A stretch of 27,635 nt of DNA, taken from contig JALOPK010000008.1 of the NCBI GenBank assembly GCA_025453925.1, positions 1 through 27,635 on the forward strand. The letters run 5' to 3'. Numbering within the stretch: position 1 is the stretch's first letter; each line of letters opens with the position of its first letter. This stretch comes from Candidatus Eiseniibacteriota bacterium. Its GTDB lineage: Bacteria; JAFGKV01. The notes below the pieces were generated by a model. The model was not told the DNA's origin, did not search any database, and worked only from the letters and a program-made list of their open reading frames with translations. Of this stretch, positions 1-27,635 are shown piece after piece. Both the position numbers and the translations under genes were made by a program.

Positions 1-111
1 CACCGTCAGGATGTCCCCGTCCACGTCCGTATCGTTCGTCAGAACCGGGATGATGACCGGCGTATCTTCCGCCGTGCTCGCAGTATCGTCGTTCGCTACC
101 GGCGCCTGGTC
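1..111 (-). other. Start of a further cadherin-like/VCBS-type domain, cut by the window edge
   Basis: The last 36 visible residues read APVANDDTASTAEDTPVIIP followed by VLTNDTDVDGDILTV. This is the opening strand and D-x-D-x-D-G-D-x-L loop of a cadherin-like domain as at 3385-4014. The frame is still open at base 1, so the protein continues for at least the rest of this domain. Confidence 0.85.
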
Positions 112-3100
112 GACGTTGAGGATCGTCACCTCCGCATCGGCCGCAGCCACGCCCAGATCATCGTCGCGTACCTCTACCGCGATACTGTAAACACCGTCGC
201 TGGTGTACACGTGCAGCCGGTTAAACGTGCCGGCGGAACAGGGGGATTCCTCAATCGTGCCGTCGCCCCACTCGATCCTCAGTGTGAAGGTATCCAGCGT
301 GCCCGGGTCGGCGATCGTACCGCTCACCGTGCTGGGCGACCCTTCATCGGCATCGGCGGCGCTCAGACCCGTGAGAGTGGGGACGACGTTGTTGAGCGTG
401 ACAGTAGTCTGTCCGGTCCCGACTTCGACGGTGTCGTCCTCCACGGTCACCGTGATCGCATACGTGTCCGCAGGGGTCCCCCCCGGTGCATCGTCGCGAT
501 ACAGATGAGTGAAACTGAAATCGGTATCTCCCGGGCTGCAGACCTGCTGCTCGAACAGCGAGCCGTCGCCCCAGTCAATTACGGTTACGATGTAGGCGCC
601 GCTCGAATCCGGGTCCGTGAACTCCCCTTGGAGCGTGACCGTGGTGTTCTCGTTCGCAGGATTCGGCGTGACCGTCAGGGCCGTTACCGTAGGTGCATCG
701 TTGACACCGTTGATGGTGACGGTGACCTTGGCGCTGTCTTCGCCGCCGCGGCCGTCAGCGACGGTGTAGCTGAAGGAGAAGGTAGCACTCTCTCCGTCTC
801 GGAGTGCGTCATAGTGCCCGCGTGGGTCGAACGTCAGCGAGCCGTCGCCGTTGTTGGTCACGGCGGCGGTGGTGAGGCTCACGATGCTCACGACGTCCCC
901 GTCGGGGTCACTGGCATCATTCACCCAGATGGTAAGCACATCGTCTTCCCCGACGGCCGGGGTCTTGTCGGCGCCGGCGTCCGGAGCTCCGTTCTCGGCC
1001 AGGATCGTCACCGTGCCGTCAACAATGGTGAGGGTCAGCAAGCCTTCATTGAGCCCGGTATGGTAGTCAAACTCATCGGAGGCAACGATATTCAGGGTCG
1101 TAGCCCCTGCCGCCGCTGCCGGCAAGATGCTGAATGTCAAATTCAGTAGCCTCCCGATCTGGGTTTCATCGACGAATTCGTTCGTGAGCGCAAAGCAGCT
1201 TATCCGGGCGAGACCGCTGGTGTTATCGATATTGGAGACCATCGCGTACCCGCTGCTGACGAGTTCACCCAGCGTCACCGCATCCAGCGTCAGAATGGCA
1301 GGCGTGAACCGCAGCTCAACATCGGCGCTCTCCATTGCCTCGCCCATCAGATTATCGACGGTCATGTCCAAATTCAGGCCGATCTCGATGGTGTCTCCCG
1401 GATAGCCGGTGAGGTCGCCGCCAAAGCTCAATTCCGGGTCGGGACCACCTTTGATCGGCGACTCAGACAGCCCAGGGAGATCCGGGATCTGCGAGACATC
1501 CAAGCCGACAGCCTTGCGGGCCAGCAGCGACGCGTCCTGCGCCGTGATACGTCCATTGCCGCTGACATCGCCGATCAGCACCGGGTCCTTCAGGCGGTAG
1601 CCGGCGGCAAAGCCGGTTCCGATCCCCACGCCCAGCCGCGCGATGTACGAGGCATCCAGACCGCTGTAGGAGAAGTTGCCCGTGGCATCACCGAGATACG
1701 CCACCACCTGCACACCACCATCGCTGCGGACCGGGATCGCCCCCTCGTTGAGTTGCACTTGACTGAGCGTGAGCAACCCGGTGGCCGTATACGGAGCATC
1801 CTCAGGAATCCCCGCTTCGATCTCAAGGATGCGCAGTGCGGTGGTGCCGGGCAAGGTGGTCGTCGTCCCGTAGAAGGTGACCGGAATGCGGCCGGGGTGA
1901 CTGATGTCGTACATCAATGTCCACTCGCTGGGTACGGCACCGCCGCGCACGATCCGTCTCACCTCCAGCAGTGACGGATCGTACTCGAACACGAAGTCGA
2001 CGGACTGCACGCCACTGCCGCTGCTGAGGGTCACCGGGATACCATTGCCGGTCGTCGGCACATCGACGTCCTGGCCCGGACCGCGGGTAACGTCGGGCAG
2101 AGACAGCAGGCGAGCGCTGGTGGCTTCTACGGTGAACGTCGTCACGTAGTCGCCGCCCGGCACGTGGTCGCCGTCACCATCGAGCGGATTGCCTTGGCTG
2201 TCGGTGAAACCATCCGCCGCACCGCGCAACGTCAAGGTGTAGGTGCCCGGCGTCAGGGGACCACCGGTCTTGACGAAGGTGAGGCTGCGTGTCTGCGAAT
2301 CATACACCAGCGAGCCGGCGACCGGCACACCCGTACTGCTGACCAGAGTCAAGTCCGCAGGGCCGTAGCCGCCGCCGGCCGTGTCGTACAGATTTAACAC
2401 GCCCAGGTTCAATTGATAGTTGAAGGACACGCTCAGCCCGGTCGCGATGGGCTGCAAGGCGGTTACCCGCAGCAGCGGCTGATCAGACAGGACGATCAAC
2501 TCATCCTGGGTGGCATCGTAGCCGCGGTTGCCGGCCGGGTCGATGGCAGTGACTATGACATCGTAAGCGCCGACAGCCAAAGCCGGGCGGATGGTGTTGT
2601 CGGGCAGAGTCCAGGTACCGTCGCCGTGATTGACCGCAGTATAAGGCCGGTTGTTGACCACGAGCTGTATCTGAGCCAACGGATCGTTTACCGTACCGGT
2701 CAGCGGCGGCGTGGTGTCATCCGCCTCGAGGAGATGCACGGTTACAACCGGTGGCGTGGTATCGACCCGCAGTTCATCCTTGCTGCCGTCGGTCGCGGTG
2801 TTGCCGGCCCGGTCGGCGGCGGTAGCGATAACCTCATAGACGCCGTCAGCCAGCGCCGGCGCGACAATGCCCGCGGGCAAAATCCACGTACCGTTGCTGC
2901 CGGAAGTCACCGCCCCGTAGGTCCTGCCGCCAACCGTGACCTCGACCGTAGCCTGCGGATCGTTGACCGTACCGGTCAGTTCCGGTGACGGGTTATTGGT
3001 CAAAAGCGGCCGGACGGTCACGACCGGCGCGGTCCTGTCGAGCGTGAACTGCACGGCAACGTCGACGCCCTGGTTGAGCGGATTCCAACCCTGGTCCCGG

Positions 3101-6100
3101 ATACCATCGTTCGGCCCAGCGTTGAGGATCACGGTGTACGTTCCCTCGCGGGTGAGCGGCGACTCGAGCACGATAAACAGGGCGTCGCTGCCCCAGCCGT
3201 CGATGCTGTAGCCGGCAACGATCTGACCTGAAGGATCGACGATGTGGACGTCCCCGTCATCTCCGAGGACTTGCTCGGAGAACAGGAACAGCAGGATCGG
3301 CGTTGCATCATTGGTCAGCTTGTCGGCATTACTGGCGCCGTTGTCGTCGTACAACTTCCACACCTTCAGCGCGGGCAGAACCGGGTCGATCCGCACGGTA
3401 ACGCTGGCGTAGCTCCGGACGCCGCTCGCGTCACGCACGGCGTAACCGAAGTAATCGAAGACGGACATACCCGGAGACAGGTGCTCGAAGGCACCGTTCG
3501 GGTCATACGTCCAGGTCCCATCGCCGTTGTCGATGATGACGGCCCCGTACTCGGTGTAGGGAGAGACAGAGACGATCGAGAGCACGTCACCCTCGTCGAT
3601 GTCGGTGTCATTGGCCAACAAGTCGGCCGCGGTGAAGGTCAGGGGCGTGTCCTCATCGGTGGCCAACTCGTCGTCCACGGCCACGGGCGCATCGTTGACA
3701 CCGGTAATGATCACTTCCACGATGGCGGTAGCGGTGGTGGTGCCATCGGAGACGGTGTAGGCAAAATGATCGGTGGCCTTGGCGCCGGCGGGCAGATCCT
3801 CGAACTGACCATTCGGATCGTAGAAGTAGTTGCCGTAGTTATCCCACCACAGGCTCCCCTTCATACCCGTCGTGTCGGGGTCGTTGATGATGGTGAGGGT
3901 GTCGCCGAGGTCGGGATCCTCGTCGTTTGTCAGCAGGTCTGCGGGACGGATGACCAGCACCGTGTCTTCGTCGGTGACTACCTCATCGTCGGCTGCCACC
4001 GGATCGCCGTGGATGGTGCCGGACGTGCCACCGATGGACCGCGTGCCGTCAACACCGCCGACGCTGGCGCTGAGGGTGAAGGTCCCCGCGGCATCGTACG
4101 TATGGACAATGTCAATCTGTGCGATAACCGGGGCGGGATAATCGAGCGGCTTGCCGTGGTAGATCGCAAGGGTCCCCGGACGCGGCACAAATTCATCGTT
4201 CTCCCAATACCCGTCGAAGCCGGCCCAATCACCGATCACGACGTCGTCATAGCCGTCGCCGTTGAAGTCGCCGCCGCCGAGCGTACCGGGAACATCATCG
4301 AAACCGATGGTCATCGCCGTACCGACGGGGAAGCGAATGATCATCGGCGATACGCCGTCGAGCGAACCGAGGTACAGGAACGCCTGGCCCAAAGGCCCTT
4401 CGCCACCGCCTGGTGCCCCGGCCAGCACAAGGAAGTCAGCGTAACCATCCGCGTTAACGTCGCCGGCCGGAGCCAGATCCCAGCCGACGTAGCCGGTGAT
4501 CAACTCCTCCGGAACCTCGATATACTGCGGCTGCTCGTCGAATCCTTTCGCAGTTCCGTAATAAACGGATACCGCACCGCGTTTGTAGTTCGGGGACGGC
4601 TCAAACAGCGGCGCACTGACGATGATATCCGGCGCCCCATCCCGATTGACATCGCCCACGCCGGCCGCATCCCACCCGAAGTAGCCGCCATTCGAACCTG
4701 TGAGGACCTGCAGCGGGGTCATCTCCAGACCGTGGGCAGTTCCCAGGAAGACGTACACCCGGCCGTTCAACGCGTCTTCCTGGCAGGCGCCGACGATCAC
4801 GTCGCCGAACCCGTCCTTGTTGAGGTCACCAACCGCGGCCACGCTGGACCCGAACTGACCGTGCTGCTGCGTGCCTTGATAGGTCCAGGCCGGACTGGCG
4901 TTCAATCCCTGCGCCGATCCCAGATACAGGCGGGCCTCACCGGCACTGACCAGGGTCTGCACCTGTCCACTCTCACTGATTCGGACGACCTCGGCGCCAG
5001 GAATACCCACGAGAACATCGCCGTACCCATCGTTGTTGACATCACCGGCGGAGACGGCAGAGTAGCGGAACGGCGCCCAGTTCTCGAGATTGGCAATATG
5101 CCAGACCGGCCCCATGAGACCTCCCGGCGTACCGGTGCCGGCAGCCGTGCCCAGGAACAGATAGATGGCGCCCTGGACGGAAACCGGCTCGTACGTCACG
5201 CTGTAGCCGTCGCCGGTCCAAACCTGAACCGCCCGCAGGACCGTAACCACCTGGTGGGGCGCGCTCACGAGAACGTCGTCATAGCCGTCGCCATTGACAT
5301 CACCGGCGGGGCTGACCGCCAGATCTCGGCTGAACGCTTCGTAGGACTGCTGGAGCATGAATCCCGAGATGACCTTCGCCGGATTATTGACGATACCGCC
5401 AGCGGATCCCAGATACAGGACGATGCGGCCGTAGGCCTGCCCATCGTTCTCATACGACTCCGTCACGACGAGATCGTCATAGCCATCGTTGTTGACGTCA
5501 CCGACCACCACGCTATTGGCATCGCCCATATCATGGCGGAACAGCGCGTTGACCTCATCCGCGACGGGGTCGAGCACCAGGTCCGGATCGTCCCAGACGA
5601 CCGGGCCGGGGGCCACGTAGTCCAGGAGGCGCGTCTCCGAGGTACCGTCCCCGAAATGGATCGTCACTTTCACCTTGTTGTTTGCGTCAGGAATGAAGCG
5701 GTGATCCGGGTCCTGAACAATCACGCGGACGGTTGTCGGCAGGTCGGTATGCATGACCTCATCGATGAATTCGGGCACCACCACGACTTGGTTGTCAATG
5801 TCGCCGAACCCGGTCCCGGCGCCGGCCGCGATGTGGATCTCGGTAAACTGCCCCACCAATACGCGGGCCGCCGGCATCCCGCGATACCCGAAATTCGTGG
5901 GAATCTCATCGCTCGGGAGGTTCCCGTCGAATCCGAACGGCACCTGCGAACTGCCGAAGGCGACCTCGCCAGCCGCCTGCAAGTTCAGCTTGTTGGCGTA
6001 GCTGTCGGTCTGGATGATCAAGCCACCGACGGCGATGCTGCCGGTCGAGGTCACGTCCACGTCCCCGTCGAGCACGTCGATGTTCACCAGTTCGACAGAA

Positions 6101-9100
6101 GTCAGGGCCTCGACCTTCAGGTCCCCCACACCCTCGACCCGAGCCTGCAGTTGTCCCACCGCGGTCCGCAGATGGAACCCGTTGTAGCCGACGGCCGTGA
6201 GACTCTGGCCGCTGATCAGGGCGCTGTCGCCGCCCACGATGTCACGTGCCTGCAGGCGGATGTCGGTGCCCTGGATGACCGGCGTGGTGACCCCGGTCCC
6301 GGAGTCCGGTCCGGACGCACTCAGCACCAGCGACCGGCCGGCGTTCAGGGTCGTCCGGCCCGTCGTGTTGATCCCGCCGTTCTCGGTAAAGATGATGTTG
6401 CCCAGCGCAACGAAGTGGACGTATTGGACCGTATTGATGACGGTGTCGATGATGATGTCCCGTTGGACCGGCACCTCTCCCACCCCGATCTCCCACGATT
6501 CCGGATGGTAGGTTTCATCGATCAGAACACTCAAGGAAGAAGAGATATCGGGCAGCTCGACGCCCTGCCAGATAGCATAATCGACATCGAAATCCAGACC
6601 AGCGCGGACCGTCAATTCGTAGGCCGATATCGAACAGCCCTCGATCGCGTACACATCGCGGGCCGCGTCGATCTCAATGGCGCTCCCCCAGGTCTCGAGG
6701 GCGCCCACCCCGATGCTGCCGGCACCGCCGGCGGTCAGAATGATGTCGTCCGCACCCACGTGGTGAGCCAGCAAGGTGCCGCCGGTCATGACTGTCACCG
6801 TGCCGGCGCCAGTGGTGACGTCCACCAGATCCACGACCTTGTCCGTGAAATCCCAGGCGTCACGCTCGGCCTGATAGTCCCAGCCCTGTTCACTGGCGCA
6901 CCAGTCGTTGTCGTTGATCCAGATGTCGCCCACGTCCGATGTGACCGCGTACGCGTCCACGTCGCCGTAGAGCCTGACTCCGCCATGGACATCCACGATC
7001 GCCGAATACGCCGTGACCATGCTGCCCGCATCACCGTAGATCGACCCGTTGTTGGAAACGAACTCCACGGTCGCGGCCTCCAAGAAGGCGCCCGGCTCCA
7101 GGTACAGGTCGCCCGTCGTCTGGATGCGGACCAGGTCCACGCCAAGGAGGCTGCCGCTGATGTGCAGATCGGTCTCGCTCTGGATGCGCACCTCCCGAGC
7201 GCTGAATGCTTCGCCGAAGTCGATCCCGGTCACGCCGTACGGGGCGATGATGCTCAGGATCTGGGAGCCGCTCAAGGAGATCCCTTCCAGGTGGATGACA
7301 CCGTCCTCGGCGGCAGGCACCGGAACCACCAACTCACCATTGTGCAGGAGCTCCGTAAACAGCTCCGGCAGGGCCTCTTCGGGCTGGTATTCCTTGTCCG
7401 TGTACTCGGCCTTCGGATCGACGAACGTGCATTCGCTGTCCGCCAGCGGGGTGTAGGCGGGCGTGAACTCCGTGAACTGGACCAGGACGTCTTCGGGATC
7501 CAGAACCTGGGTCAAGTGCCCGCCCGGCGGGACAATGACGGCGCTCTCCCAATCCACCCCTTCCTGCTGGGCCAGGAACTGGGCCAGGCTGACCGCGGTC
7601 CGTGTGGCCGGATCGAGCACGTAGACCGTCACGTCGTCCCAGTTGAAGGCTGGATCGAGCGGATTCGGAGCGCTGGGACCGGCCGCCGCGACCAGGATGG
7701 AATAGTGGTAATCGTGGACGGTGAACAGGTCATGCGGAATCTGGACAGTGCGCTCATGCTCGTCACCGGCCTCGTCCAGATAGGTCTCTTTATGGAAGGT
7801 GTACGTGACCTTGTCGAACTTCCGCACGAAGAAGGAGACCTCGCCCGGATAGATGGCATTGGGCGCGCCGCCCACCAAATCGACGGCGTACACCTGGTCA
7901 TCCAGGGTCTCATCGCCCGGTTGTGCCGGATCGTTGGGCGTTCCCATGATGTCGCGATAGTACCAGGCGCCGGGCGCCCCTTCGAGCTCCACCAGCCAGG
8001 TGTAGAAGGTGTCGTCCGCATTCTCTTCCACGTAGACCGGATCGCCGTGGACGTCCGTCTCGCCGGTCAGACCCTTGACGTCGCGGTAGAGCAACTGACC
8101 GGTCACCGTATTCTGGTACAGGAAGTAGCCGGAGAACTCGTCCTGGGCAACCCCGATGCCGTCCACCGGCCCGGGCTGGTGCGTTCCCCCATCGTCCCCG
8201 AACTGCTGAACGTGATGTCCAAGGGCCTGGATCCGGATGGCGGTGGGCGCGGGCGCGGACAGTTGCAGAGCGTGCAACTCCTGCTGCAGGGACTGGTAGC
8301 TCTGCTGCAGCAAGGTGAACTGGCTGGAGAGCGTGGCCATCCGGCTCTCGTTGAGAGCGAGCGTCTGGCGGAAGCTGTCGGCCAGGCCGTTGAAGGCCAG
8401 CGCGCCCTGCTGGATGACCATGTTCTGGGCCAGGGTCAGGATCTCCGCCTGGTCTTGCTGGCCGGCCAGATCAACGTCGTACAGGTGGTACCGGCCGTGC
8501 AAGCCCTCCCACTTCTCGGTGATGATCTCATCGAGGTTGGCCTGCATTTGTAGTTCGTAATCGGCCAGCGTCGGGTTGAGCGGATCGAGCGGATCGGTCG
8601 GTTCGAGCTGAGTCTCATAGGCGGCGAGCGTGGCCTCGTAGCTGGCTTTGTCCGCAATCCGTGCATCACGCTGCGCGGGCCAGCCGTTCGCATTCGCGGG
8701 ATCCAGAAGGAGCTCCAACTCGTCCAGGCTGTGCTGGGTGAGGTACGGGAAGGTGGTCTGGTACCACTGCACCCCGCCGGGGAACTCATTCAGCTTATTC
8801 TGAAGATACGTCCGCTCCGGTCCGACCAGCGTCGACCCGTCCTTCAGGATCCCGCCGAGGGTGTTCAGGTCCTGCTGGACAAGGCCCTGCTGGGCCTGGA
8901 GATCAGCCTTCATGTCCTCCAGCGCCTTCTGCTCCTGATCCAGCAGGCTGTACGAGCCCTGCCAAGTGGCGTAGATATGGTTCATCAGGCCCGTGCGACT
9001 CCCCTGTGCCTTGGCCAGGTCCTCATCCAACTGCTTGATCCGACTCAGGCATCCCTCTCTCGTCGTCGGCAGAGTGGGGTCCCACTTTCCGGTCGCGCCT

Positions 9101-12100
9101 TGCGTGACCAGATTGTTGTAGGTCCAGGAAATGTCGCCGACTTGTATGAGTTTCTCGTTGATCCCGGTCTTGTCGCCTTTGCCCCAGGAACGCAGCAGGT
9201 CTCCTCGCAACGCGAGCAATTCCTCGTACTTCAGAGTGCCCATGAGTTCGTCGGTCACGTCATACAGCTTCCATTTGCCAGAGTAGAGGGCATCGACGAT
9301 ATCAAAGTAGGCCCAGGGCACCGTCTTGGTAGCTCCCGCCGCGTCCTTCAGAACGAAGTCACCCGTATCCTGATCGAAGCGAATGCTGGTCCAACCCTGT
9401 CGGACGAACGTATCATCTGTCTTATAGTCCGGTACATAGTATGGATTCAGTCGCCCCAACCTTGCATCGGCAGCGATGAGACGATTCGTCAAATAGGTGT
9501 AGGCCTCGGTGGAGCCATTCGGGATATCCATGGTACGGACATACGCGAAAGCGACTTCCAGGAACTGGCGGTCCATCGCCGCAATCTGCTGATTCAGGCT
9601 GGCGATCTGCGCATCGAGGGTGGACAGCGTCGGGTGCCCGTTGATCCCCTGCAACTGGGTCCACAGGGCAGGGACGGTGATGTACTTGGTGCCGTATGGG
9701 AGGAGTCTCCGGAGTTCCCGGTCGAAGGTGTAGTAGTCGATCGAAGTGGCCTGCGCCAGGGGGGCCACGATATTGAGAACCGTCTGGACCTCAGCGATCT
9801 CGGCGGTGTAAGCGTCGTACTGGCCCCGAAGATAGCTGTAGGTCTTGTTGGCATAGGGGCCGGTCGTCAGGTCGGTGACGAACTGGGTCATGGCCGGGCT
9901 CAGGACATTGGTATAGCCGGCCAACTGGCGGAAGCGGGCATCGATCTCGCTATAGGGCGTTTGGCCACCTATTCCGGCGAGGATGCCGAGCGCGGCGTTG
10001 ATGTCGTTCAAGTCTAGGTAGTCCCGCGTGACCGCCAGTTGGCCCTTATTGAGCACGATCTCACCTTGCAGGCGCGTCTTCTCGCTCCCCAGGAAGGACA
10101 AGGTATCACCGACCTCGGTGTCCAAGGCCGTCAGGTTGAGGTACAAGGACTTCAACCGGTTGTCGCTCAGGGTGGCAGGGGTCACCGTCTGCGTGAGGCC
10201 GGCGACGTTGCGCACCTCATAGGCGCTGCCCGTGCCCGTCGGATCGAGTTGGCGGAGCCAGACCTCCTGCTGTACGTTGCCCAGCAGTACACCCAGATCG
10301 GCCTGATAGGCCGTGGTCTCGGTGATGCCCTCGTCCACCTCCGCGAGGTCGGCAATCCGCTGCGCGTTATTGCCGATCATACCCAGGATGTCCTGGATAG
10401 CCTCGTCAAGGAGCCCCTGGTACAGGAGGATGTTGTCCAAGACCAACTGCCGCTCGGCCAGCAAGTCCGTGTAGTAGTATTTTTCGCCGCCGGGCAGATC
10501 CAGCCACATATCCTCGATCGTGTCCGGCCACAACTCCTGCTCGACCTCCCAATCCAGTTGGGCCTGCAGGTTCGCGAACTGGGTGCGGAGCTGCTGCTGT
10601 TCAAGCTGATACGGCAGATGCAGCAACCGCTGGAGATAGGTCTCGCCCAGCAGACCCATCGAATCCGCCTGGCCGGTCTTCAGGGCAGCCGTCGTCCGCG
10701 CCAACATGGCCAACTCCTGCGAGACCTGCGCCTGCTGCCGCAGGTTCGTTTGCAGTTGCTCGAGGACCTCCTGCTGCTCGGCCAGGGCCTGCACGTAGAC
10801 GTTGAATCCGGGCCGGCCCTCGACGATCGTTCCGTCGGGGCCGAGCTCGACGACATCGTCCGCGAGGTTGACGTTGCCTTCACTGAGGATATCGATGCCG
10901 GTCAAGCCGGCGAGATGCCCGCTCAGCGTGGCGCTGCTGCCCACGTTCATGGCAATGGAGCCGATCTCCAGCAGGACTTTCTGCTTGAAGGTGCTGACGG
11001 TCCCGCCGGAGGTCAGCGAGAGCTGTCCGGGCGTGACGAGGTGACCGGTCACGACGAGGTCGTCGGCCGCGATCAGGTTCAGCGGGCCCGCCGAGATCAG
11101 GCTGCTGCCGGTCTCCCGGACGAAGAGACTGCCCGCCGTGGACCTCAGTGTCAGGCCCTGGAGGGCATCGTGGCTGTGGGCGTCGTTGAGGATCAGCCCA
11201 TGCTGGGCGGTGACATTGATCGCGCCGCCTTCAGCGCCGAGCAGTTCCATGCCGGGCGTGAACTCCCCCACCCCGTCCACGTCGAAGACCGCGACGGTAT
11301 GATAGCCATGCGAGAAGACGGTGCCGCTCGGATTCACCGCCATCGTGTTCACTGCCATTGTCAGGCCGGTGATGTTGAGCTGCGCCTGCAAAGCGGCGTC
11401 GCCCGCCACGATCGCGACGCTGCCGACGCCCGGACCAGTGATGGCCCCGTCCGCCTCCAGCCGCACCTTGCCCTGCGAGGTGAAGCCTTTGGTCATCCCG
11501 AGCAGACCGGTCGTCTCCCGGAAGCCATACTCCTTGCGGTTCTGGTCCCACGCGAGAGACTCGTCATCCTCGAAGGTGGCGTCGTAGGAGATGCCCAAGA
11601 GACCGAGCAGCCGCGTGTACAGGATGAAGGCCACGTGGCCGGTGATTACCGAAGGATAACCAAGGCTCAGGAAGTCCGCTTCGTCCAGGACATAGGGGTC
11701 ATCCTCCGGCCCGATGGTCGCCAGCGCGGCCGCAATGATCGCGGCCAAGTCGTCCGCCTCCGTCATCTCCAGGTGCACGACGATGGTCGGCACCCCTTCG
11801 GGATTCGTCGAGTAGTCGAGTACCGGGACGCCTTCCTCATCAGTCAGAGGATCGCGCAGCGCAAGCGGAATGTCGTAGGTTGAAACGCCGGTCAGATCGA
11901 TCCGGCTCAACTGGGCGTTCAGCAGTGCCAAGCGAATCGCGGCGGCCTCGGCATCGCTGGAGGCATACGTGCCGCCCGTGATGCTGACCACGGTGATCGT
12001 GCCGCCGCTGCCTTCCACGGTGCGCAGGAGGATCTCATTGGCGTGCGGCGGGGCAACTGTGGTGTCCCAGTCTGTCTTGAGCACGACGTTCTCGGCGGTC

Positions 12101-15100
12101 AGGTTGCCGTTGGTCGTGATGTCGATGTTCCCGTTCGCCAGGGTAACCTGCTGGAGGGTAAGGTTGGCGCTGTTATTGTACAAGAACAGGTCGCCGCTGC
12201 CGGTGATCTCCAGGACGAGCGAATTCAAGGCGGTGTTCAGCGGCTGCTCCGAGGTACCGATACTGCCGAAGGCGGTGATGGTCGCCTGGTCCGCGACGAC
12301 GCTGGCGCCCGGATCGAGGATCGTACCCTCAACGTTCAGGATCACATCGGCCAGACCCGCGGCGAAGATATCGTGGATCGTCACCGTGGTTCCGCCGGTC
12401 GCGGCGGCGTGGGCCGTGATGGTGATGTCGTCGTCGTCGGAGCCGCCCAGCGAGGTGACGCTGGTGATCACCAGGCTCGGGGTGATCGTCTCGATGGTGA
12501 TCGGCCCGTCTGCCGTCTGGAGGTTGGCCAGGGTCACGAGCGACGGCCAAGCCGGCACCGAATCCTCCAGGACGAAGCCGACCGCCTTGATGCTTATCGC
12601 GCCGCTGCCGCTGACCGTGGCAGTGATATTCGTGGCGTAGACGTTCTCCAGGGTGATGCCCGCGGACGAGGTAAGGACCAGGGCGGTGTCGGCCCGCAGC
12701 AGACCGCCCGTCGGCGGTGGCGTGCCTTCGTCACCCGCGCTGTAACCGCTCGACTGGATAATCGATCCGGCCGGGGCGGTCAGGGTCAGGGTCTGCGTGC
12801 TGATGTCCGCATCCAACAACGAGATGTCCCCGCCGCTGGCGCCGGCCAGCAGGGTGATCTGGCCGTCTTCACCCAGGGTCCGGAGGGTGCCGCCCAGCGA
12901 AGGACGCTCATTGCCGTCGAGGCTGTCCGCCGGGTCGCTCGTCTCCGCCAGATGAACCAGGATGTTGCCAGTGGCAGCGGTTCCCTGACCGGCGCTGATC
13001 GTGATCGTGCTGTGGGCGGTGGTGACGACGCCGGTGATGGTCACATTCGTCCCCGCGCTGATCGCCACGGTGTCGCGGGCCTCGATCTCACCGGCCACGG
13101 TCACAGAGCCCTCCGGCGCCGTCAGGGCGATATCCTTCTGGCCCGGGGCCAGCGAATCCAAGCTGGTCGTGGTGAGCGTCGCGGTCTCACCGATCACGAC
13201 ATCGCCGGCAGTGGCGGTGATATCGATCGTCTTGGTGGCGGTGATCTCGATCAGGTCGTAGATCATCGGATCGACGGGCATCTCCCCGCCAACCGTCACG
13301 TCGCCGGTATCGGAGGTGATCGTGACGGCGCTGTCGTCACCCGAGGCGTTCATGCCGGCCTTCACCAGAACGTTGCCATGTGCCGTGATGGTGATGTTGC
13401 CGTTCGCGCTCAGGGTAGGGAGATCGAAGGGAGAGAGGTCCAGAGGCCCGTCCGGCGTGACGGCGCTGGCGCCCCACGTGGCCCGCGGTTGGGTCACGGG
13501 GACATACTCCCAGTTGGTGACCTGCTCGAACTTGATCACCGGCACCTCGCTGGTGAGCGTCTCGTATCGGGGCCGCTTATCCACGATGTCGTGCGCCTCG
13601 GTGAACACGCGGTAGGTGAGATTCGAGCGGATGTCCTGGATGGCCTCCCAGCCGGTCTTCATCTTGTAGATGTAGTCGGTGAAGGTCTCATTGGTGACGA
13701 TGGGGCCCTTCCAGTAGGGTTCCTTCTCGTAGAAGCCGGGCAGCCTGTACGCCTCGGCGTCGCCGTCGTCCGGATTGCCGTCGAGGTCGTTCCAAGTCCC
13801 GCCCGGCCACATCATCAGCTCGTTTTCCCAGTTCAAGTCGTTGGGTTCGCCGGGGGCGAAATTGGTGTACTGGCCGTCGCCGCGCTCGACGTGTCCCCCA
13901 GGAGACACCCAGTCAAAGTCCTCCCACGTGTCGTGGGTCCACCCAAAGACATTGTGTCCGCCCAGCCACACGCTGTAATCGCCTATCCTGCTGGCGACGT
14001 CGGCATTCTCTTCGGGACTGTTGATGATCACCAGGTGGTAGCCGGGGGGGGCGCCGTCCGCCGCGTCCTGCCAGTACTGACTGGAGCTGGAGTCCCACTG
14101 ATACAAGGGGCCGGACCATACCTTATGTTCCCCCACGATGCCGATGACGTGGGTCTCTTCCACCGCGAGTTGTTCGAGTTTCACACCGTCCTGGTCCACC
14201 ACCAGCACCTCGTCGGTGTTGCCGGGGTTGAACTGGGCAAACACGGCGTTGCCCAGATTGTCATAGCCGAACTGCCAGTTGTTACCTTCAAACACACCCC
14301 AGCCATAGGAATCGGACACGACCGCGGCCTGGTCCGCGTCGAACACGCCGCAGCGCGTCCGGTAGAGAACACCATCATCGTCCCGATACCACAGCGTGCC
14401 ATCGCCACCGACGGTGCCTGCGTAGGCTGGACATCCCTCACCTTGGAAAACCTCTCCGGCCTCACCCAGGTCCCACTCGATCAGATCAATCGGGACTTTC
14501 ACCGACCGGTCGACCTCCGCAACGCTGTAGACCAGATCCCCGCTCAGGATCGCATCGGTCAGATAGAGGAAGTCCGTGCCCAGTCCCGAGAACTCGTAGT
14601 CCTGGGTGGAGACGCCTCCTTCCAGGGCCAGCTCGACCAAGCCCGCGTAGTACAACAGATTGGTGTAAGGCTCCGCCGGACTGATCTCCCGGCCGTCAAA
14701 GACGCTGTACTGCTGATAGGCCGTGTACGGATCGGTCCAGCTTGAATGCGGCGCGCTGCGGTAGGTCACCACGTAGCGTGGGTCAGGGCTCAAATCATAA
14801 TCGGCGGTCCGCCACCAATCGTCGTGAGCTGGATTCTGCGGCTCAGGCTCCACGTCATTGGCCGACCAGCCCTGGGCATACTCGAGCTGGTAGACCTCCC
14901 GGGTGTAGCCTACGGTCTCATCGACAGTCTCGACATTCCCCACGTACTGCAAGGTCTTCTGATCGGGATCGGTGCGGTCGTTGCCCAGGGTGGTCATCTC
15001 GTAGTTTTCCCACCACTCCACGGGCACGCGCAGGAAGATGTCGGTGCCGTCGTCGAGCTCATAGTAGACGACGTCGCGCACCGCGCCGGTGAAGTCCAGC

Positions 15101-18100
15101 TCCCAGAAGGTGGCGGTGGGGATGCCCTCGAAGTTGCGGTTGATCCGGCCTAGGCCGTGTGTGGGCGAATAGAGCTTATCCCATCTGTCGCCATCGATGT
15201 CGCTGCTCAGGATGGCGTCCTCCCGTTCGAAGAAACTGGCGATGTACCCGTCCTCATCGGGATTACTCATCTCCCAGTTGTAGTCATAACCGGCAATGAA
15301 GAAGTCGTCCGCGATGGCGTCGATCACGTCGCCGATCACGGTGTAGATGGCCTCCCCCAGTTCCTTGCTCAGGTACTGGCCATCTTCAGTAAACTCGCTG
15401 GCCACGATGGCCGCGAAGTCGGCGGCGAATTCCGCCGACAGCGCCAGCTCGTCGTCCACGAACAGGTCGAGCGGGGCATTCTGATCGGGATCGATGGCAT
15501 GCAGCGCCGCATTGAGAACTGCCAGCGTGATGCCTTCGTAGCCGCGCGTCAGCATCTCGTTGGGCGGCAGGAAATGCGCCCGGGCCGCAGCCTTCTCCGT
15601 CGGATACAGATCGTGATTCCAGTGCACCGCCGGATCGAACGGCACGAACTCGGAGAACCAGAAATCGAAGTAGTGCTTGGTGTAGGTCCTGCTGACGACC
15701 TCCACATCATCGATCTTCCCAAGAGCCGCCCAATCCACTGGCGCCACCGCGAAGGTATTGTTCACCCACACGCCGGGTACGAATTCCCCGCCGTAGATGA
15801 CGCCTTCGAGCGTCGGCGCGATGCCCTCATCGTCATCGAAGGCCCAGACACCATCGGCGACCTCATACAGAACCGTTCCCTCGCCGGCCACCGTGAGCTC
15901 ATCATCCACCGCCGTATGGAAGAGCACGCTGGCGTCGGTAACCGTTACCAAGGAAGAGGCGAGCGGATCGTCCGTGGTTATGCCGTCGAGCAACTCATAG
16001 ATGGACGGAGCCTTGGCCACGTAGACGGGATCCCACACTTCCTCCTCCACGGTCTTCTGGAACTCGGAGATGAACTGCACGTCATAGAGCATCTGGTAAC
16101 CCAGGAAGTCCATGATCGCGTTGATCTGCTCGGTGTCGGTAAGATCCTCCCAGCCCTTGCACTCGTCTCCGCCCACCGTGAACGCCTGCGCCAGGGCGGC
16201 ATACACCTGCGTGAAAGTCTGTGCGTGGTAGTACTGCGCGGGACTGAATTCCACGAACAGCGGCGGCTCCGCGTCCATGTAAGTGACATAATTGGCAATC
16301 ACCGACTCCATCTGGGCGCCGGCGACGTACGGGTCCCACGGGTTGACAATGGGACTGTCCCACTCCGAGACCTGCTCGAACAGTTGATAGACGGTCTCGG
16401 CCCACTCCTCGTTCTCGATGGCCGGATCGTCGGGCTGGAGCGTAACACCCAGCCAGGGCACATACACCGCGTCGGTAAAGCGGTTGTACTTGCCGGGCCA
16501 GGTCAGGTCTTCCACCGTATAGTCGACCCCCAAAATGAGGTACTCGCGGAACTGGTCTTCCCGGGGCAGCTCTCCGATGGCCCCGAGAAGGACATCCTGG
16601 ATGAGCACACGGTTGAGCCGCGCCAGCTCGACACCCGTCAGTTCGTCTTTGGCCAGCAGATTCTGGGCTTCGGTGCTCAGCGTCCACCCCTCAAAGGCAT
16701 TTTCATCGTAGAGCGACACGCCACTGGCGACGATGGCGTTGAGGTCGTCAATGATGGCCTTCTTCAAGTTGTAGGAAGGCTCGTTGGGATAGCTGTAGGT
16801 GTTGAGCAGACTCTGGGCCGTCTCCAGACTTTCCCAGATCTCATGCAGTGGCGAAGGATCGTAGTCTCTTCCCCACTGCAGCAGCCAGGCGGCGAAGGGA
16901 GGACTGGCCCCGTAATCTACGTCGAGATCGATCATACCGAAGCCGACCTTGTAGTAGCCATCCTGGAACAGCCGGGTCTCCACACTGCCAAACTCGCTGC
17001 CGACCTTGACGTCATCAAAGCCGGTCTGCTCCGTGGTGATCGTGGGGATCCAGTGCACCACCGGCTGCAAAACGAATCCGGCCTCGACCTTGCGGTAGCC
17101 GGTGACCACGTCCACATAGACCGGCTCGTACGTGATGTACGCGGGCGCGAACTCCAGGTCATCGTTCATGGTATCTTCAAAGGCCTGGAGGATGACCTCG
17201 CCGGTGGCCGTGAGCTGGATAGCGCCGGTCACCGTCACCGCCTCATATCCCGCCGCCAGCTTGCCTTCCGCGCTGACGGCAATGTTGCCCACCGTCACGC
17301 CCTCGGTTCCGGCCCGCACCGCCACGTCGCCGGCGCTGAGGATCTCGCCGCGCACCATCACGTTATACTCGGCGTCGATCAGCACGCGGGAGTGATTGAA
17401 CGAGCCTTCCGTCAGGTACTCGCCCTCGACCTGGACGGTGCCGTAGACCCCGACATTCCGGCCGATCAGCTCCACCGCCCCCTGGGCGGCCACCAGGGCG
17501 CGGAAGTAGTAGATCTGGCTGCGGGCGATGTAGACATCGCCGTCATCCGGGCCGCTGCCCGTCGCCGTCAGGCGGGTCACCGAGTGGACTCCACGGGTGA
17601 TCGTCACGCTCTCGCCCATCGCCCAGATGTTCTTGCCGTGCACGTCAATCTCGTGCCGGGCATTGATCAGAGCATCACTCCAGAAGTAGACCTCATCGGG
17701 CGTGGTCATGGTCACCGCGCCGACATCGACGGTCGAGACCGGATGGGCGGGATCGGTCTCATCCAGGTAGACCTCTCCGACCATGCCGTAGACTTCAATG
17801 CGTTTGCCGCCGTTGATCGTGATCGTGCCTTCGGGACCCGTGTTCACGATGCCGCCGCTCTGGCGGGCGGGTAGATCGATCATCCGCATCCCGCCAGTAC
17901 GAGCCATGGGAACGGGTCCCTCCTGGACCTCGCCGATATCCACCGGCTCCCCACCGTACACCGCGTCCTCGATGGCGCCGGGATCAGCCAGGACCCGGTT
18001 GCCGCCCGGGACCGGATCGTCCACGTCGGGATCGATGACCGCACCCAGCGCGTCCACCAGTTCCCCGGCGGCATTGATCCGGTACCCGTCGTCATTGACC

Positions 18101-21100
18101 AGGTATCCCTGATCGCTGACCAGATGGCCGGCCGCATCGGCGAGATACTCGACACCCGCGAGAACCACGCTGCCGCCGACCAGACCCGGAATCGAATTCA
18201 GATAGGCTACCGTGTCGGGGTCGGCCACAATCGGGTGCCCGCCGAAGACGGGCGCTTCCAGCGCGGTCAGCGGAACACCGGCGGCATCGGTCAGCTCGCC
18301 CCGGAAGTTGATGATGTGGCTCTGCTCATCGAGGAGATAACCGTGGTCGCCGACGCGGTAGCCATGGTCGTCGGCCGTATTCTCGTACTGGTTCACCAGG
18401 TAATCCACGCCGCCGAAGGTGAAGACGCCGCGGATGGCGCCCACGCCGTTGAGCAGCTCGCCGCTGCCGTCGATCAACAGCCCCTCGACGTTGATGCGGT
18501 TGCCCGCGCCGTCAATCAGGACATCGGTGGCCGTCAGCAGATTGCCGTAACGGTCGATCTTGTAGCCGTAGGCATTGATCGGCTGGCCGATCGCATTGAT
18601 GAAATTCCCGTACGCATCGACGAGATACCCGTACTGATTGATCAGGACGATCTCATCCGTGTCTTCATCGTAAGCCAGGAGTTGTTCCTGCTCATTGATG
18701 ACCATGCCGTCCTCGTCGAGGAAGTGCCGAACGTCGCCGACGCCCTCATCGACATGCAGGTATCGCACGTAGTTCTCATGATCGGCCATGCCCAGAGCCG
18801 CCAGGTTGGCACCAGCCATGCCGAGAGCGATATCGTAGCCGGTCGCGGCAAATACGAGACGCCTGTCGCGTTCCGAGGCCCGGATCATGCCGTAGGCGCT
18901 GCCGGCTCCGGCCAGCGCGTCGTTGAGGTCATCGATTAGCGTTTCGGCGTCCGTCAGCGAGATCGACAACGGCGTATCGCTGATCGCCGCGCCGGTGGTG
19001 GAATCCCAAACGTCGAAGTCCAGGACGATGGTGAGCGGGAATCCGACCGTCGGCAGCGCCGCCTGCGCCCGCAGCTCCGTGTACTCCACCAGCAGGTAAC
19101 CTTCCTTGTCCACCAGCACCGCCTCCAACGGCGTCTCTTCATCGCCGTCGTCCACGTAGGTGAGGTACACCGCGCCTTCCCCGAGCAGGGCATATCCGCC
19201 GGGGCCGATCAACTGAGAGGGATGACCCGCGTCGTCCACCACGACGTTTCCATCGTCATCCCGCTCCAGCCGGAAACCATATCCATCAATGGGCTGGCCG
19301 TGCTCATCGACAATGAAGGTCGCCATGCCGGGGATGGCCCCATGAATCGTGGGGAATGTCATCGTCTTGGTCACATAGAACAGCTTGTCCACGACCACGC
19401 TGATCGCCTCCGGCGAAAGCGCATCGGCCCCGGTCAGGGTCACGCTGTGGCCGGCCTCCACCAACCCGGTGACCAGGAGCATCCCGGCGCCGGAGTTCAG
19501 GCTTACGTTGGAATCCGAATCGATCGCCTGAATCACGCCGCGAACGGCAATGCCATCGCCCGTCGTCACGGTGATGTGACCTGTCACCCCGGCGGTCGGC
19601 ACACCCACAGGCACGGCATCCGTCTTCAGAGTGCTCAGGGCATTCAGATCGAAGCGCGGGTCGGCGCCGCCGCTGACGACGATCAAGATCTGGCCTGTGG
19701 CCTGGGCGAAGCCGCCGCGCACAATGGCGTCCCCTTCGTGGTCCGCGTCGCCGTTCAGCACATCCAGATCCGTGGCGTTATGCGGATCGTCCCCGCCGAA
19801 GGTAACCATCTGCACGCCCCGGATCTCGATCGCCGCCCCCGTGGCATGGGCCGCCGCCCAGTAGTCCAGGCCGGCCAGGTCTCCCACCCGCACCGGGTCG
19901 CGGCCGGCGTACAGGCTGCCCAGTACATTAACGTGCTGGCCTTGCAGGTAGATCCGGCTGTTGGCATGGCGCACGATGAGCTCGGCGCCGCTGCGGATAT
20001 CGAGATCGCCCAGGGGGGCCAGTTGGATGCGTCCGGAGGCCACGATCTGCGCACCCAGCGTATAGGTGTCGCCTTCCGCCAGATCGGGGCTCGTATCCTC
20101 GTCGCTGCCGTCGGAGCCCTCGGTTCCGATGCCACCGTCGACGGTGATGGCGGGAGCCTCGATGCACACCCGCTCGTCGCCGCCGTCGAGGAAGCTGCGC
20201 TCTTCCGTAATGAAGTGGAAGGTCTCGACGCCGCCCGCCTCCAGCGATCCGCGGAGCGTGAAGGCGTTCGACGTCGTGATCAGAATCGAACCGAGGGCGT
20301 CGACATCGCCGGTGATATCCACGTCGTTGGTGGCCGCGATGACGATCTCGTAGTTGGGCTCCTTCATGTCGCCGACTGGCGCCGGGGCCGTCGCGCCGGC
20401 GTTCTTGAGCACGCCGAAGACATTCACGTGGGCGGCTTTCAGCACGATGCGGCCGTTGGTTTCGATCCAGCCACTTCGTTCAGTGACTTCGATGTCGCCG
20501 TTGCGGGACGTGACCAGCACATGGGCATTGGTACGCGCGTCGTCGTTCTGCAGGGACCCGAGGGCGCCGTCCACGGTGACCTTGTTCCGCCCGTCCAGGC
20601 GAATGGTCTGCTCCTGGTCGGCGACCGCGTCGCTGCCCGGCGCGACCTCCGTGAAGCCGAGGGCGGCCACCTCGCTGGAGCCCGTCGCCAGCAGCGTGAA
20701 CGCATGATCGGCTTCCAGCACCAGGGTGGAACCACGGTGCGTCACACCAAACCACTGGTTGGCGTGCAAACCGGTGCCCGATCCCAGGTGGGTGAGCGCG
20801 GTGGCCGCGAAGGCGGCGCCCAGATCGGCGACGAGATCCGCAATCCCGGTATTGGCGGTCGTCCCGGGCGCTGTCCCGTCAGTGCTCGAGGCCGCCACCG
20901 TCACCAACGCCTCGTACGTGCCGCCCAGGCCGTTGTCGATGGACAGCGCCAGGGTCACGTTCCCGGCCAGGACCCCATTGGTCGGAAGCTGGCCGTCCGC
21001 CACGATCTCGTAGTTCGCGATGACCAGGTCTCCCGCCGTCCGGATCCAGGCCGTGGGCGCGATGATTACACTCTCGGCGGCCGGGGTATTCTCGGTGAGG

Positions 21101-24100
21101 AACCCGGCCTCGATGTAGACATGACGATCGGCTAGGATATGGCTGTTGACCGTGATGACATCCTTGGCCGTCAGGATCACATCGCCCTCGTTGCCGCCCG
21201 CAATCAGGTCGCCCTTGAGGAAGCCGTTCTCACCCAGATCGAGAACGATGGGGCCATCGGTGGTCTCGAGCAGTGCCGACCACTCCAGGTCGAGGTCCGT
21301 GTTCGGGCCTTCAACCATGCTGATCATGTGGTCGGTCAAAACGGAACCCGCGATATACAGGCCGCCCACCGGGTTCTCATCCGAGCCGAAGATCACTTCG
21401 GAACCGGCGGCCTTCGCCACGATGTTGTACGGCCGCTCCGACAGCACCTCAACTTCGTCGATCACATTCTCGAGGCCGAGCAACTCGACATTGACGCTTT
21501 CCAGGTACCCGACCTGCGGATCGAAGAACGTGTCGTAGAGGCGGATCTCATACTGGCTGGCAAGCAGGATCTTGCCGTTCTTGAGCTTGATCTTGACGAG
21601 CGGATCGGCGGTATGACCGACCGTCACCGGGTCGTCCGCGAAATCCTCATCGTGCGGCCGCCCCTCGAGCAGATCGTTGCCGTACGGATCGCCGTCCAGG
21701 TTGACGTAAGAAGCGCCGTTCAGGGCGGTCTGCAGATCAAGGACGAGGTCCATGATCATGTTCTCATCGTCGTTGCCGGCCGTCTGGTCCGCCGTGATCG
21801 TCACTTCCCCCACGATCTTCTGCACGCCCAGATTGACCCAGAGCACAAAGGTCACGTCTTCCGGCAGCACGCCGTCGTTGGATGAACGGTTGGCCTCGAT
21901 TTCGCTCTCGTAGGACAGCTCGCCGAATCCGAGGAGGGTTTCGTTCTGGGACTTGTACTCGATGTCGAACAGGTAGTCGCTCTCAAAGACGATGAAGCCG
22001 TCCGCCTCAACGGCCCAGACATCCGTGGTTTCGCCGGCGATCGCCAGGTTGATGTCCGCCACCAGGTCGCTCAGACTGGTGTTGTTCGCGGTCAGTCCGG
22101 CGGGGACATGCACGGTATAATCGCTCACCGGAGAAATTGGACTCGACCCGCCGGCAGTCGAGTAGTCATAGACCCGGAAGTCCAGACGAACCGCCGCGGT
22201 CAGTCCGTAACTGGCCGGCAAACTGATCCGCTCCCGGACCACCCCCAGCTCCCCGGCCACCTCAACGTACGGATAGACCTGCTGCACCGGAACCGGCTGC
22301 ACGGCGGTGACATCCGTACCGCTTTCCACAGTCGTCAGCCCCAGTAGCCCGGCGTGGTCCGAACCCGGACCGCTGATGGTAAACTCGACGTCGCCGGCCA
22401 GCACCAGGCGCCCGGACCGGGAGCTGACGGTGATGAACTGGCTGACATACGAGCCCGTCGCCTCCCCGCCGTCATAGACCCGGGCGGCCGTGCAGGCGTT
22501 CTCCAGATCGATCAGCAGGTCCTCCACCCCCGTATTCGTGGTGGTATCGCGCCAAGACAGGATGACCGTGGCCGCAAGCGTCCCGCCGACACCACCGTCG
22601 ATGGCGATCTCCAGCGTCACATCGGCGGTAAGCACGCCGCTGACAACGAGCTCGCCCTCACCGGTGATCTCATAATCGGTGTCGGAGGCCGCGGAGGAGA
22701 ACGTCCCGGTCGTGAATCCCACCTGCGTCAGGCGATCGGCCGGCTGACTGTCGAGCGTGAAGGCGTCGTTGCTGAACAATACCAGGACCCCGCGCTCGTC
22801 ACGGGCGCTGAGGACACTGCTGAATTTCACCCCGGCGTGGCCCGGAATCTCGGTGTCTGCGAACACCGCGTTGATGTCGCGCACGAGGTCGGCAATCCCG
22901 GCATTGGCGGTCGTGCCGTCCGCCGTGCCATTCGTAGTCGCCGCGGGCACGGTGAACAGTTGGTGGATTCCCGTGTAAACCCCGCTGGTGATAGCAATGT
23001 CAAGCACAAGGTTTTGGGAGAGGACGCCGTTGACCATGCTGTCATTTGCGGTCACGCGGTAGGTCTCGGGATCGCGCTCGGCAAGCTGGGCCTCGTCATC
23101 CACGGCCGGCAATCCGATCAGATAGGCGTTGCCTTGCGGCTCCTCACGGGCACTGTCGAGATCGTGTCCGCCTTCCACCGTGGCCAGGCCCAGAGAACCG
23201 GCATGGACCGAGGTATCCAGGACCGTGAAATCATACCGGCTGTAGAGGACCAGCGTATCCCGGTTCAGACGCACGTAGACCTCGCCGGCGGGGAAGGCGT
23301 CGGCAAAGGCGTGATAGACATCACTGTACAATTCGTCGATCGAGGTATTCGTCGCGTCGCACTCGATCTCGACCGCCCCCTGCGTCGCGCCGCCGGGCGT
23401 ATCCACGCTGATGTTCAGAATCACGTCGTCGTCGTCATCGGCCCCATCGCCGTCGGTATCGGGAAGGACCCCGTCAGACGGCAGAGCATCTTCCACCTCG
23501 ATCACGGCCTGCTCGCCGTCGATCTCGAAGGCGTGGAAGCTGGAAAGCACGATTTGATGGGAGGCGTTCAGAGAAGCCTCGATATTCCGGAAGCCGCCCC
23601 GAATCAGGGCGTCGTTGATGTCCGCCACCAGATCCGCGCGGGTGGTATTGTCGAGCGTGTCGTCGCGGTAGACGATCACCGTGCCTTCGACAACCTTGTT
23701 GCGCTCCTGGCTGCCTGGCGTCGGCTCATCCAGGTACGGGCTGACGTGGGCGGGGTCGTGATTCGGATTGACGTTGGACATCACCACGTGCAGCGCGATG
23801 TTGTCCGCCAATACTCCCTCGGTGGCCAAATCGTCTTCGGCGATCAACTCGAACAAAGAAGGATCGCGGCTGGAGAATTCAGAAGTTGCGCCTTTGCCGC
23901 CGTCGTTGACGTCGCCGGCGACATCAACCAGGCCCAGCAGATCGGCACCGACCGACTGCGGCGTGATCTCGATATCCACCGTGTCACTCGCAAACACCAA
24001 CCTGCCGGTGTCATGGCTGACCGCCACATCAAAGCGCAACGACTCGATGACAGCGTTGATATCGGCCAGGAGATCCGCCAGCGTGGCATTGTCGTCCGTG

Positions 24101-27100
24101 TCGTCGGCTTCGATGGTGAAGGAAGCAACCAGCTCGCCTTCGCCGAACGCGAGCACGAGGGTGACATCTTCGACGAGCGTGAACTCGTCGAGCAGCCCGG
24201 TGGCGGTATAAGCTTCATCCGCCTGACCGGGCGTGAGTACCGAGGATACGCCCGGAGCGCCGCCGTCCACGACCGTCAGTCCCAGCCCGTCGGCCCCGAC
24301 GGAGGTCGGCTCGATCTGGAAATGCCCGGAGGTCTGGAAGCGAATATAGCCGCCACTGTCCACGACCTCCAGGTCCTGCACCGGAAGATCGATCTTGGCA
24401 AGGATATCATTCATGTCCTCGACAAGGTCATCCACGTCGCGGTTCTTGAAGAAGACCGCTTGGCCGCGCGTCGCTTCCAGGTCATGTCCCGCGGCGACCG
24501 AGGTCAGACCCAGTAGATCCGCCGCCGCCGACGTGCTCTCGACGCGGAAATCGCAGAGGCTGATCAGGACCAACCGGCCCTCATAGAGGGAGGCGATGAT
24601 ATCTTCAAAGCCGGAGGAAGCGAGGGCGACGTTGATATCCTCGATCAGGTCGTCCAGCGTAAGATTCAGACCGTCGACCGCGATCAGCACCGAGCCACCG
24701 GCCACGCTACCCACGCGGTCGATCACGAGGTCCAGAGTCACCGGGCCGGCCAGAATCCCCGACGGGATCGACGCGTCACAACCGATCACCGCGTACGCGT
24801 CGGCCACGTCGGTGCCGTCGGTAAGGGCTTTCTGGACCGTGACCGTGGCCGTCAGGGTGTTATCGTCGCTATCGGTGGTGACAACTTCCAGGGTCACGTC
24901 TTCGGCCAGGACGCCCGTGGTCGGTACCGGGGTGTCGGCGACCAACTCCATCACGAAATAGTCGCGGCGGAGGGACGAAGTGTCACGCCCGGCCGCGACG
25001 GCGTTGAAGCCGAGCAACTGCGCCGAGACCGACGTGCTCTCGAGGGTGAAATCATGGGCGCTGACGAGGGTCAGGCGGGAGCCGTCCAGCTCGGCCACAA
25101 TGTCACCGAGTCCGGCGGCCACCAGCGCGTTGTTGATATCCTCCAGCAAATCCGCGAGCGTCTCGTGGTCGCCGGCCGCGATCACCGCCGTCCCGGAAGC
25201 CGGCACGCCGTCACGCGTAATCTGCAGGGTGACCGCCACCGCCAGGTCTTCGGACGGAATATTGTCGTCGCCGCTCACCCGGGCGGCGAACACCACCTCG
25301 GCCAACTGCCCGAGCAGCGATCCCTGCTCCGGCAGACGCAGGGACGCAACGTTGTAGCCCGCGGCCACCGTCAGGAATCCCAGTCGCTCGGCATTGACGG
25401 AAGTATTGCTCAGAATCCGGAAATCATTGATGCTGCTCAATTGCAGCAGGCCGCCGTGCACGGAGACATCCATATCACCCAGGTCCGCCGTCAGCAGGGC
25501 AACCTCGATGTCGTCCATGAGATCGTCGAGGTCGGCGTTGTTGTTGTCGTCCGGGATCGTTACCGTATAGGCGCTGATGACGCCCCTGCGGTTGACCTCG
25601 ATATGCAGAGTCACCGGACCGGCCAAATCGACCGCCGGGACAGCGACTTCGCCGGACAGGGAGGCCCCAAAGTAGACGCCCGCGGCTTCCAGGTCCACGC
25701 CGGCCGTCATGCCGAGCAGCGCCACGTTCTGCGACGCGCTCTTGATCTTGAACGCGTGGGTGCCCAGCAGCACCAGAACACCCTGCTCTTCGGCGGCGGT
25801 GATGTAATCGGCAAAGTGCCGCACGCCATGCAGGAGCGCCAGGGGATTGCCCGACTTGTAACGCCAGATCGCGGTGTCGGCCAGGGCCGCATTGACATCA
25901 TCCACCAGATCCGCGATCGTGGTATTATCCAGCGTGTCCGCCGCAGCTATGGTGACCGCATCGTATAACACGTCCTGCAGGTCGGTCTCCTCGATCCGGA
26001 TGACCAGGACCACGTCGCGGGCCAGTTGCCCGGTCGTAGGCACGGCGCCGCTGGCGACCAACTCCGCGAGCTCACGATACTCGGTGGTTTCCCAGTCCCC
26101 GCGGAATCCCAACTGCACGATATGCTCGGAAGTATCGAGGATCTCGAACTCCGGTCCCAGGGTGGTGAACATGAGCTTGTTCCCGCTGAGGCCGGCGGTG
26201 ATCGCGTCGAACGGATCGTTGCCGGTGCCGGGCGTGGGATTGAGCGCGGCGTTGATGGTCGCCACCAGGTCCGCGCGGCTGTGGTTGCCGGCGGTGGAGG
26301 TGGCCGTGATAACCACCGAATCTTCCGTGATGACACCGTCGTCGTCCAGCCAGAGGTCCAGGGTCACGTCGGCGATCAGCCGGCCGGTCAACGGCAGAGC
26401 GTATTGGCCGATCACCTGGGCCTCGGGATAGTAGACCGTAGAACGCAGGAGCGGCGTCAAGCCCAGAAGATCGATGTTCTCGGAACCCTCGGCCAGAATC
26501 GAGAAGTCGTGGCCGTAGCCGGTCAACACCAGGTACCGGCCTTCCTGCCCGACCTCGAGATCCATGAAGTGGTCGCTGCCGTTGAAGATGCTCTTGAGGT
26601 ACAGCAGCAACGCGCCGTCGCCGGGGTATTCTTCCGTCTCAGGATCGCCGCGGAAGAAGATGGACGGGATGGTGATCAACTCCTCGACCTCGGTCTCCGT
26701 GGAGAGCACCGGCTCGCCCGCCGCCGCCACGTCCGTCATGCCCAGGACCGCGACACCACTAGAAGACTCGTCGATCTGGAACGCGTAGGGGCAGCCGATG
26801 AACAGCCGGCCACCCGGGGCCGGCGCGGCGTAGAACGGTGCCAGGTCCGCCGACAGGTAGAACTGCTCGTTGATCTCCTCGATCAGGTCCCACACGCCCT
26901 CCTGGTCAAAGACCATGCCGGCGTCTATCCCGATGGTGATCTGGCCCCAGAAAGCGCCGCTGAGATTGTTGAACCTGAGGGTGACACTCCGGGCTGTCTC
27001 GGGCGGAGTGTAGGCAGCCGGGGCGGCGTAGCCGTCGATGCGCTTCCACATGTCCAGGACGACATTCGACGGCAGATAGCCCTGCAGCATGAACTGGCCT

Positions 27101-27635: not shown

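Follow-up and report, generated by a model that had tools for sequence, protein, structure and literature searches.

A contig-filling frame as the interior of a giant gene for a probably exported multidomain protein with collinear orthologs in distant genomes

The stretch of DNA analysed here (27,635 bp, hereafter the window) is probably the interior of one gene, whose acidic multidomain product would be an exported giant of the LEPR-XLL/dockerin surface-protein class of Planctomycetota. It comprises the entire contig C124 of its source MAG, from first base to last, and is filled by one minus-strand frame whose counterparts in two further genomes are collinear with it over thousands of residues. 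One of these counterparts is complete and extends over 14,858 aa.

The frame and its orthologs

In a six-frame translation, the minus-strand frame running from 27633 to 1 (codons ending at 1, 4, 7, and so on) contains no stop across its 9,211 codons, just as the initial annotation of this DNA had claimed. The five remaining frames have 17, 282, 429, 324, and 240 stops, and ~260 would be expected in a frame of this length from base composition alone. GC contents of 0.65, 0.43, and 0.82 at the 3 codon positions are coding-like in each 500-codon block. Long ORFs on the plus strand, the longest of them encoding 1,769 aa at positions 3244-8553, had been proposed to be antisense shadows, and we agree because the 17 stops of their frame match the rare TTA, CTA, and TCA codons of the gene (2 + 9 + 6). 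The encoded protein is very acidic (pI 4.05) with a cysteine content of only 0.2%. Since the window is a whole contig, both gene ends are contig ends and neither start nor stop is visible, again in line with the initial annotation. Its proposal to extend the contig in both directions met with no success, as the bin of the MAG (3.9 Mb in 502 contigs, 82% complete) has no contig overlapping either window end.

A scan of named genomes revealed that contig LJUC01000119.1 of Phycisphaerae bacterium SM23_30 is one frame open across all 11,979 bp, and a second contig of this genome (G386:C45) carries the match onward. The ends of both contigs share exactly 104 bp, and joining them gives a single open frame (at least 7,784 aa) that is collinear with window aa ~900-8250 at 53.2% identity over 6,980 aligned aa with few gaps. 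Both contigs are filled by this one open frame and have been left unjoined in the public record, where a gene caller would keep unrelated fragments. At the outer ends of the joined pair, no overlapping contig was found either.

By searching the order of SM23_30, we found the complete ortholog in genome G497, where a 245-kb contig contains a frame of 14,875 codons. From the sole early ATG of this frame (codon 18) to a TAA stop, the gene (G497:C142:96561-141137) encodes 14,858 aa. Window aa 2-8205 correspond to aa 7049-14423 of this protein. Its N-terminus carries a LEPR-XLL motif (NCBIfam NF012209) at aa 28-41 that scores 17.8 bits against a cut-off of 17, its C-terminus has 2 dockerins (1.3e-15), and an RTX block lies around aa 5,650 (HemolysinCabind, 1.8e-9; RTX_toxin, 3.7e-18). 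The gene just after its stop codes for a small dockerin-bearing protein whose start resembles a signal peptide, and 2 Golvesin_C/PKD proteins are encoded ~8-16 kb downstream of the giant. The SM23_30 and G497 proteins, from the same order, share 47.3% identity over shared columns, and the C-terminal ~1,000 aa of the window protein diverge from both. The agreement of 2 independent orthologs bears out the view that the window lies within a single genuine gene longer than 9,211 codons. The full protein would probably measure roughly 15,000 aa or more, and exceed ~16,000 aa if its missing N-terminal part resembles that of G497. Relatives of the gene sought in plasmids and viral contigs were not found.

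Modules of the window protein

The features of the window protein are listed in Table 1. Recognisable domains had initially been described throughout the frame, which goes too far: Matches to Pfam and NCBIfam fall only within ~aa 7,300-9,211, and the C-type lectin domain stands apart from these. Pfam searches with 700-aa tiles gave no meaningful match across aa 1-6950, where weak matches to OTU1_UBXL and DUF6944 did not reach a meaningful level and were discarded. With the profile libraries silent there, aa 1 to ~7,300 were analysed via de novo repeats, orthologs, and structure comparison. Adenylation, condensation, and ketosynthase domains of the NRPS/PKS type were sought in the window with Pfam and NCBIfam, and carbohydrate-binding modules with Pfam, in each case with no match.

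Table 1. Features of the window and of the protein encoded on its minus strand.
Feature	Window position	Strand	Protein residues (aa)	Remarks
Interior of one giant gene	1..27633	-		9,211 codons running off both ends of the contig; ~979 kDa, pI ~4.05
18 copies of ~105-aa repeat	18781..27009	-	209-2951	last copy (aa 2856-2951) set apart; b-b-a-b-b fold, flagellin/FliD 'IN'-like (tentative)
Short Y-G-rich repeats	17734..18642	-	2998-3300	type 'INQYGYLVDAYGNFINAIGQPINAYG', unnamed; read from sequence
Strongly conserved region without Pfam family	14314..17316	-	3440-4440	long invariant patches across three genomes
C-type lectin-like domain	13783..14037	-	4533-4617	EPN...WND motif visible in sequence; E 2.9e-5 to CD23
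Helix-former-rich segment	8284..10983	-	5551-6450	probably helical/coiled; composition only
FG-GAP repeats	4195..5502	-	7378-7813	integrin-alpha-like beta-propeller
VCBS / Cadherin_5 / tandem-95 domains	3379..3921	-	7905-8085
Big_13 / Ca2+-stabilised Ig-like repeats	2524..3003	-	8211-8370
Cohesin domain 1	1756..2103	-	8511-8626	2.6e-6
Dockerin-like segment	1489..1692	-	8648-8715	E 0.03, under Pfam cut-off
Cohesin domain 2	1003..1413	-	8741-8877	8.2e-16
Cadherin-like domain	709..993	-	8881-8975
PKD domain	130..381	-	9085-9168
Beginning of another cadherin-like domain	1..138	-	9166-9211	truncated at contig end

The ~105-aa repeat has the consensus LPxxGxL..VTLxxxI...VxIxAxxTxxNxxxxDLxxDINxAL...GxLVLxSxxxFxIxxxSxxxxxLG and no match in Pfam; in particular, the model of the flagellin hook IN motif (PF07196) gave no hit up to E 1-10. 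One copy, modelled with AlphaFold (pLDDT 81), folds as beta-beta-alpha-beta-beta, and its best structural neighbours are a domain of a phage tail sheath (Z 9.1), Vibrio flagellin (Z 8.6), and Helicobacter FliD (Z 7.7). Foldseek likewise places flagellar proteins on top, at weak E values of 0.3-1. At the sequence level, a profile of the repeat run over 386 genomes detects FlgK in 2 genomes that share a genus (per-genome E of 5.7e-5 and 3.1e-4; hhalign E 7.5e-4 at 26% probability) and a 3,325-aa protein in genome G246 (E 8.5e-9), and the NCBIfam FliD model weakly touches the repeat region of the complete ortholog (E 0.013). The same profile has no significant match among solved structures. Taken together, the fold and sequence comparisons argue weakly to moderately for a flagellin/FliD-type "IN"-like domain, an assignment that is reasonable but not proven. 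Most copies in the window pair best with their positional counterpart in SM23_30, typically at 55-79% identity compared to ~33% for other pairs, indicating that the array is ancient and has kept its order, and that it did not arise by recent amplification.

The 3,325-aa frame (G246:C1 ~1737609-1740083, L026) lies in a complete 2.8-Mb genome and has at least 3 copies of the window-type repeat; 1,068 aa of it were scanned with Pfam and gave no match. The FlgK proteins of ~940 aa (L027:436-3246 in G252, and L028 in G115) contain several IN-like inserts that have no Pfam model and are caught by the repeat profile.

Beyond the repeats, the conserved region at aa 3440-4440 stands out by its long invariant stretches (for example TYEPVYVDVVTGYR and PVVHWIPTITTEQTGFD), and an AF2 model of its core (aa 3440-3790, from 3 sequences) is unusably poor at a pLDDT of 40. 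The lectin domain, which Pfam does not call, matches solved C-type lectin domains in sequence. Runs of short, V/I-rich repeats, for example near aa 4,700-5,250 and 6,650-7,250, appear solenoid-like, and the segment at aa 5651-6450 is less conserved (34-39%). The FG-GAP propeller has 5 stretches above the Pfam cut-off (6.4e-35) and matches integrin alpha-IIb at 5e-19.

Host of the contig and alternative readings

The assignment of the gene to its MAG seems doubtful: Either contig C124 comes from a planctomycete and was binned wrongly, or the gene has moved between genomes. In RpoB, the MAG shares 91% and 82% identity with its 2 known relatives and 47% with SM23_30, so that RpoB is less conserved towards SM23_30 than the giant itself (53%), which suggests misbinning or lateral transfer. 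In addition, the identity between the window and SM23_30 (53%) exceeds that between SM23_30 and G497 (47%) even though the latter pair shares an order. The 2 relatives of the MAG (94% and 98% complete) have neither the first 3,000 aa of the window protein nor aa 2960-5959 nor the repeat, and other matches within the bin of the MAG itself are of the FG-GAP type only. Several FG-GAP proteins are also encoded by the relatives of the MAG (G001:C296:5527-8178 and contigs C454, C64, and C420 of G001/G002/G000), one of them a 1,344-aa frame with many tandem FG-GAP-like repeats.

We therefore lean towards a real gene on a contig misbinned from a planctomycetal relative of SM23_30, an explanation that concerns the host and not the nature of the gene. 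Lateral transfer would give the same picture, however, and composition does not settle the host because the tetranucleotide profile of the contig fits the MAG (0.627 compared to 0.619 for own-own comparisons), its codon usage deviates from the MAG, and the G497 giant departs still more strongly from the codon usage of its own host. For this last reason, we dropped the codon deviation as proof of misbinning.

Regarding the protein itself, it seems unlikely that it is an RTX-type adhesin exported via a type I secretion system. The RTX calcium-binding block of the G497 giant and the VCBS and Ca2+-tandemer domains of the window would suit such an adhesin, but this block sits internally (~aa 5,650 of 14,858) and the C-terminal region is instead occupied by the 2 dockerins. 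Still less probable is a two-partner or filamentous-haemagglutinin-type giant adhesin with a long beta-solenoid. Huge proteins of the haemagglutinin type have been reported (PMC11573180) and the solenoid-like V/I-rich repeats of the window recall them, but Pfam has no match within the N-terminal 1,146 aa of the G497 giant and thus no TPS/haemagglutination domain, with LEPR-XLL present there instead. That several genes were misassembled or fused into one frame, conceivable where both ends are contig ends in a MAG of 502 contigs, is very improbable because the orthologs are collinear: Two further genomes have the same module order in one frame, which excludes a misassembly or a lost stop for aa ~900-8200, and this support is weaker for the first ~900 aa and last ~1,000 aa of the window.

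Proposed role and relation to known giants

The window protein, read as an exported giant of the LEPR-XLL/dockerin class, is likely to serve both as an adhesin and as a scaffold of the matrix. The extracellular-type domains of the window (FG-GAP, Cadherin_5, VCBS, Big_13, 2 cohesins, and PKD) would be those of a protein that leaves the cell and stays attached to its surface; its export is deduced from the ortholog only, because the window contains neither the N- nor the C-terminus. In this architecture, the 18 repeats may build an extended rod carrying the conserved core, the C-type lectin, and the propeller outwards, of which the latter two are predicted to attach to glycans or other surfaces. 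The cadherin and Ig modules would serve as calcium-stabilised stalks, as expected from their families, and the C-terminal cadherin/Ig, cohesin, and dockerin modules may link the giant to further secreted proteins through predicted cohesin-dockerin pairing. A candidate partner is the small dockerin protein with a signal-peptide-like start encoded directly downstream of the giant in G497.

Neither the size nor the surface role of such a protein is new, since giant surface genes are already documented in Planctomycetota and giant ORFs in Omnitrophota. Giant genes are general in Planctomycetes, with the largest of Fuerstia marisgermanicae reaching 36,239 bp (PMC5177795), and huge proteins with Big_9, Cadherin_5, RTX, and Dockerin_1 domains come mostly from Planctomycetota (PMC11573180). 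The giant described here belongs to the same size class and surface-protein type. Yet planctomycetal giant genes are described as strain-specific, at least as Reva and Tummler are cited in PMC11573180, while this one is collinear over more than 7,000 aa between distant genomes. With the LEPR-XLL giants (NF012209), it shares great length, Cadherin/Big_9/dockerin modules, and, in the G497 ortholog, a motif above cut-off; it differs in its large block of flagellin-IN-like repeats, and the motif is known from the ortholog, as the N-terminus of the window protein lies outside the contig. Giant ORFs of Omnitrophota, 39,678 aa long in one case, resemble it in size, in adhesion-type domains, and in one case in dockerins, but, according to their description, they show little conservation and often contain transmembrane helices (PMC10066038).

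Two further systems can be compared at the level of single modules. The AF2 model of the repeat has flagellin and FliD among its closest folds, behind the phage tail sheath domain, and its profile picks FlgK; unlike the IN domains of these proteins, the repeat has no PF07196 match and stands in 18 tandem copies in a giant, non-flagellar surface protein. The 2 cohesins and the dockerin-like segment of the window, together with the dockerins of the ortholog, recall cellulosomal scaffoldins, but the cohesins are a minor portion of the window protein and Pfam finds no carbohydrate-binding module. What is unusual about this giant is its strong collinear conservation, its long flagellin-IN-like repeat block, and its conserved core without a family.

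As a tentative and rather speculative extension, these proteins may form a conserved family of extracellular giants in which flagellin-type IN domains were taken from the flagellum into a surface rod and combined with a cohesin/dockerin scaffold and a lectin, with a module order conserved across thousands of residues and a spread from one phylum to another. Gene callers drop or split giant bacterial genes, which are usually regarded as strain-specific. The giant of the window fills a whole contig and is about half identical and collinear across distant genomes. The analysis also contributes a repeat family that no Pfam model covers, and the available complete copy makes the start, the export motif, the module order, and the conserved uncharacterised domains of these giants directly testable.
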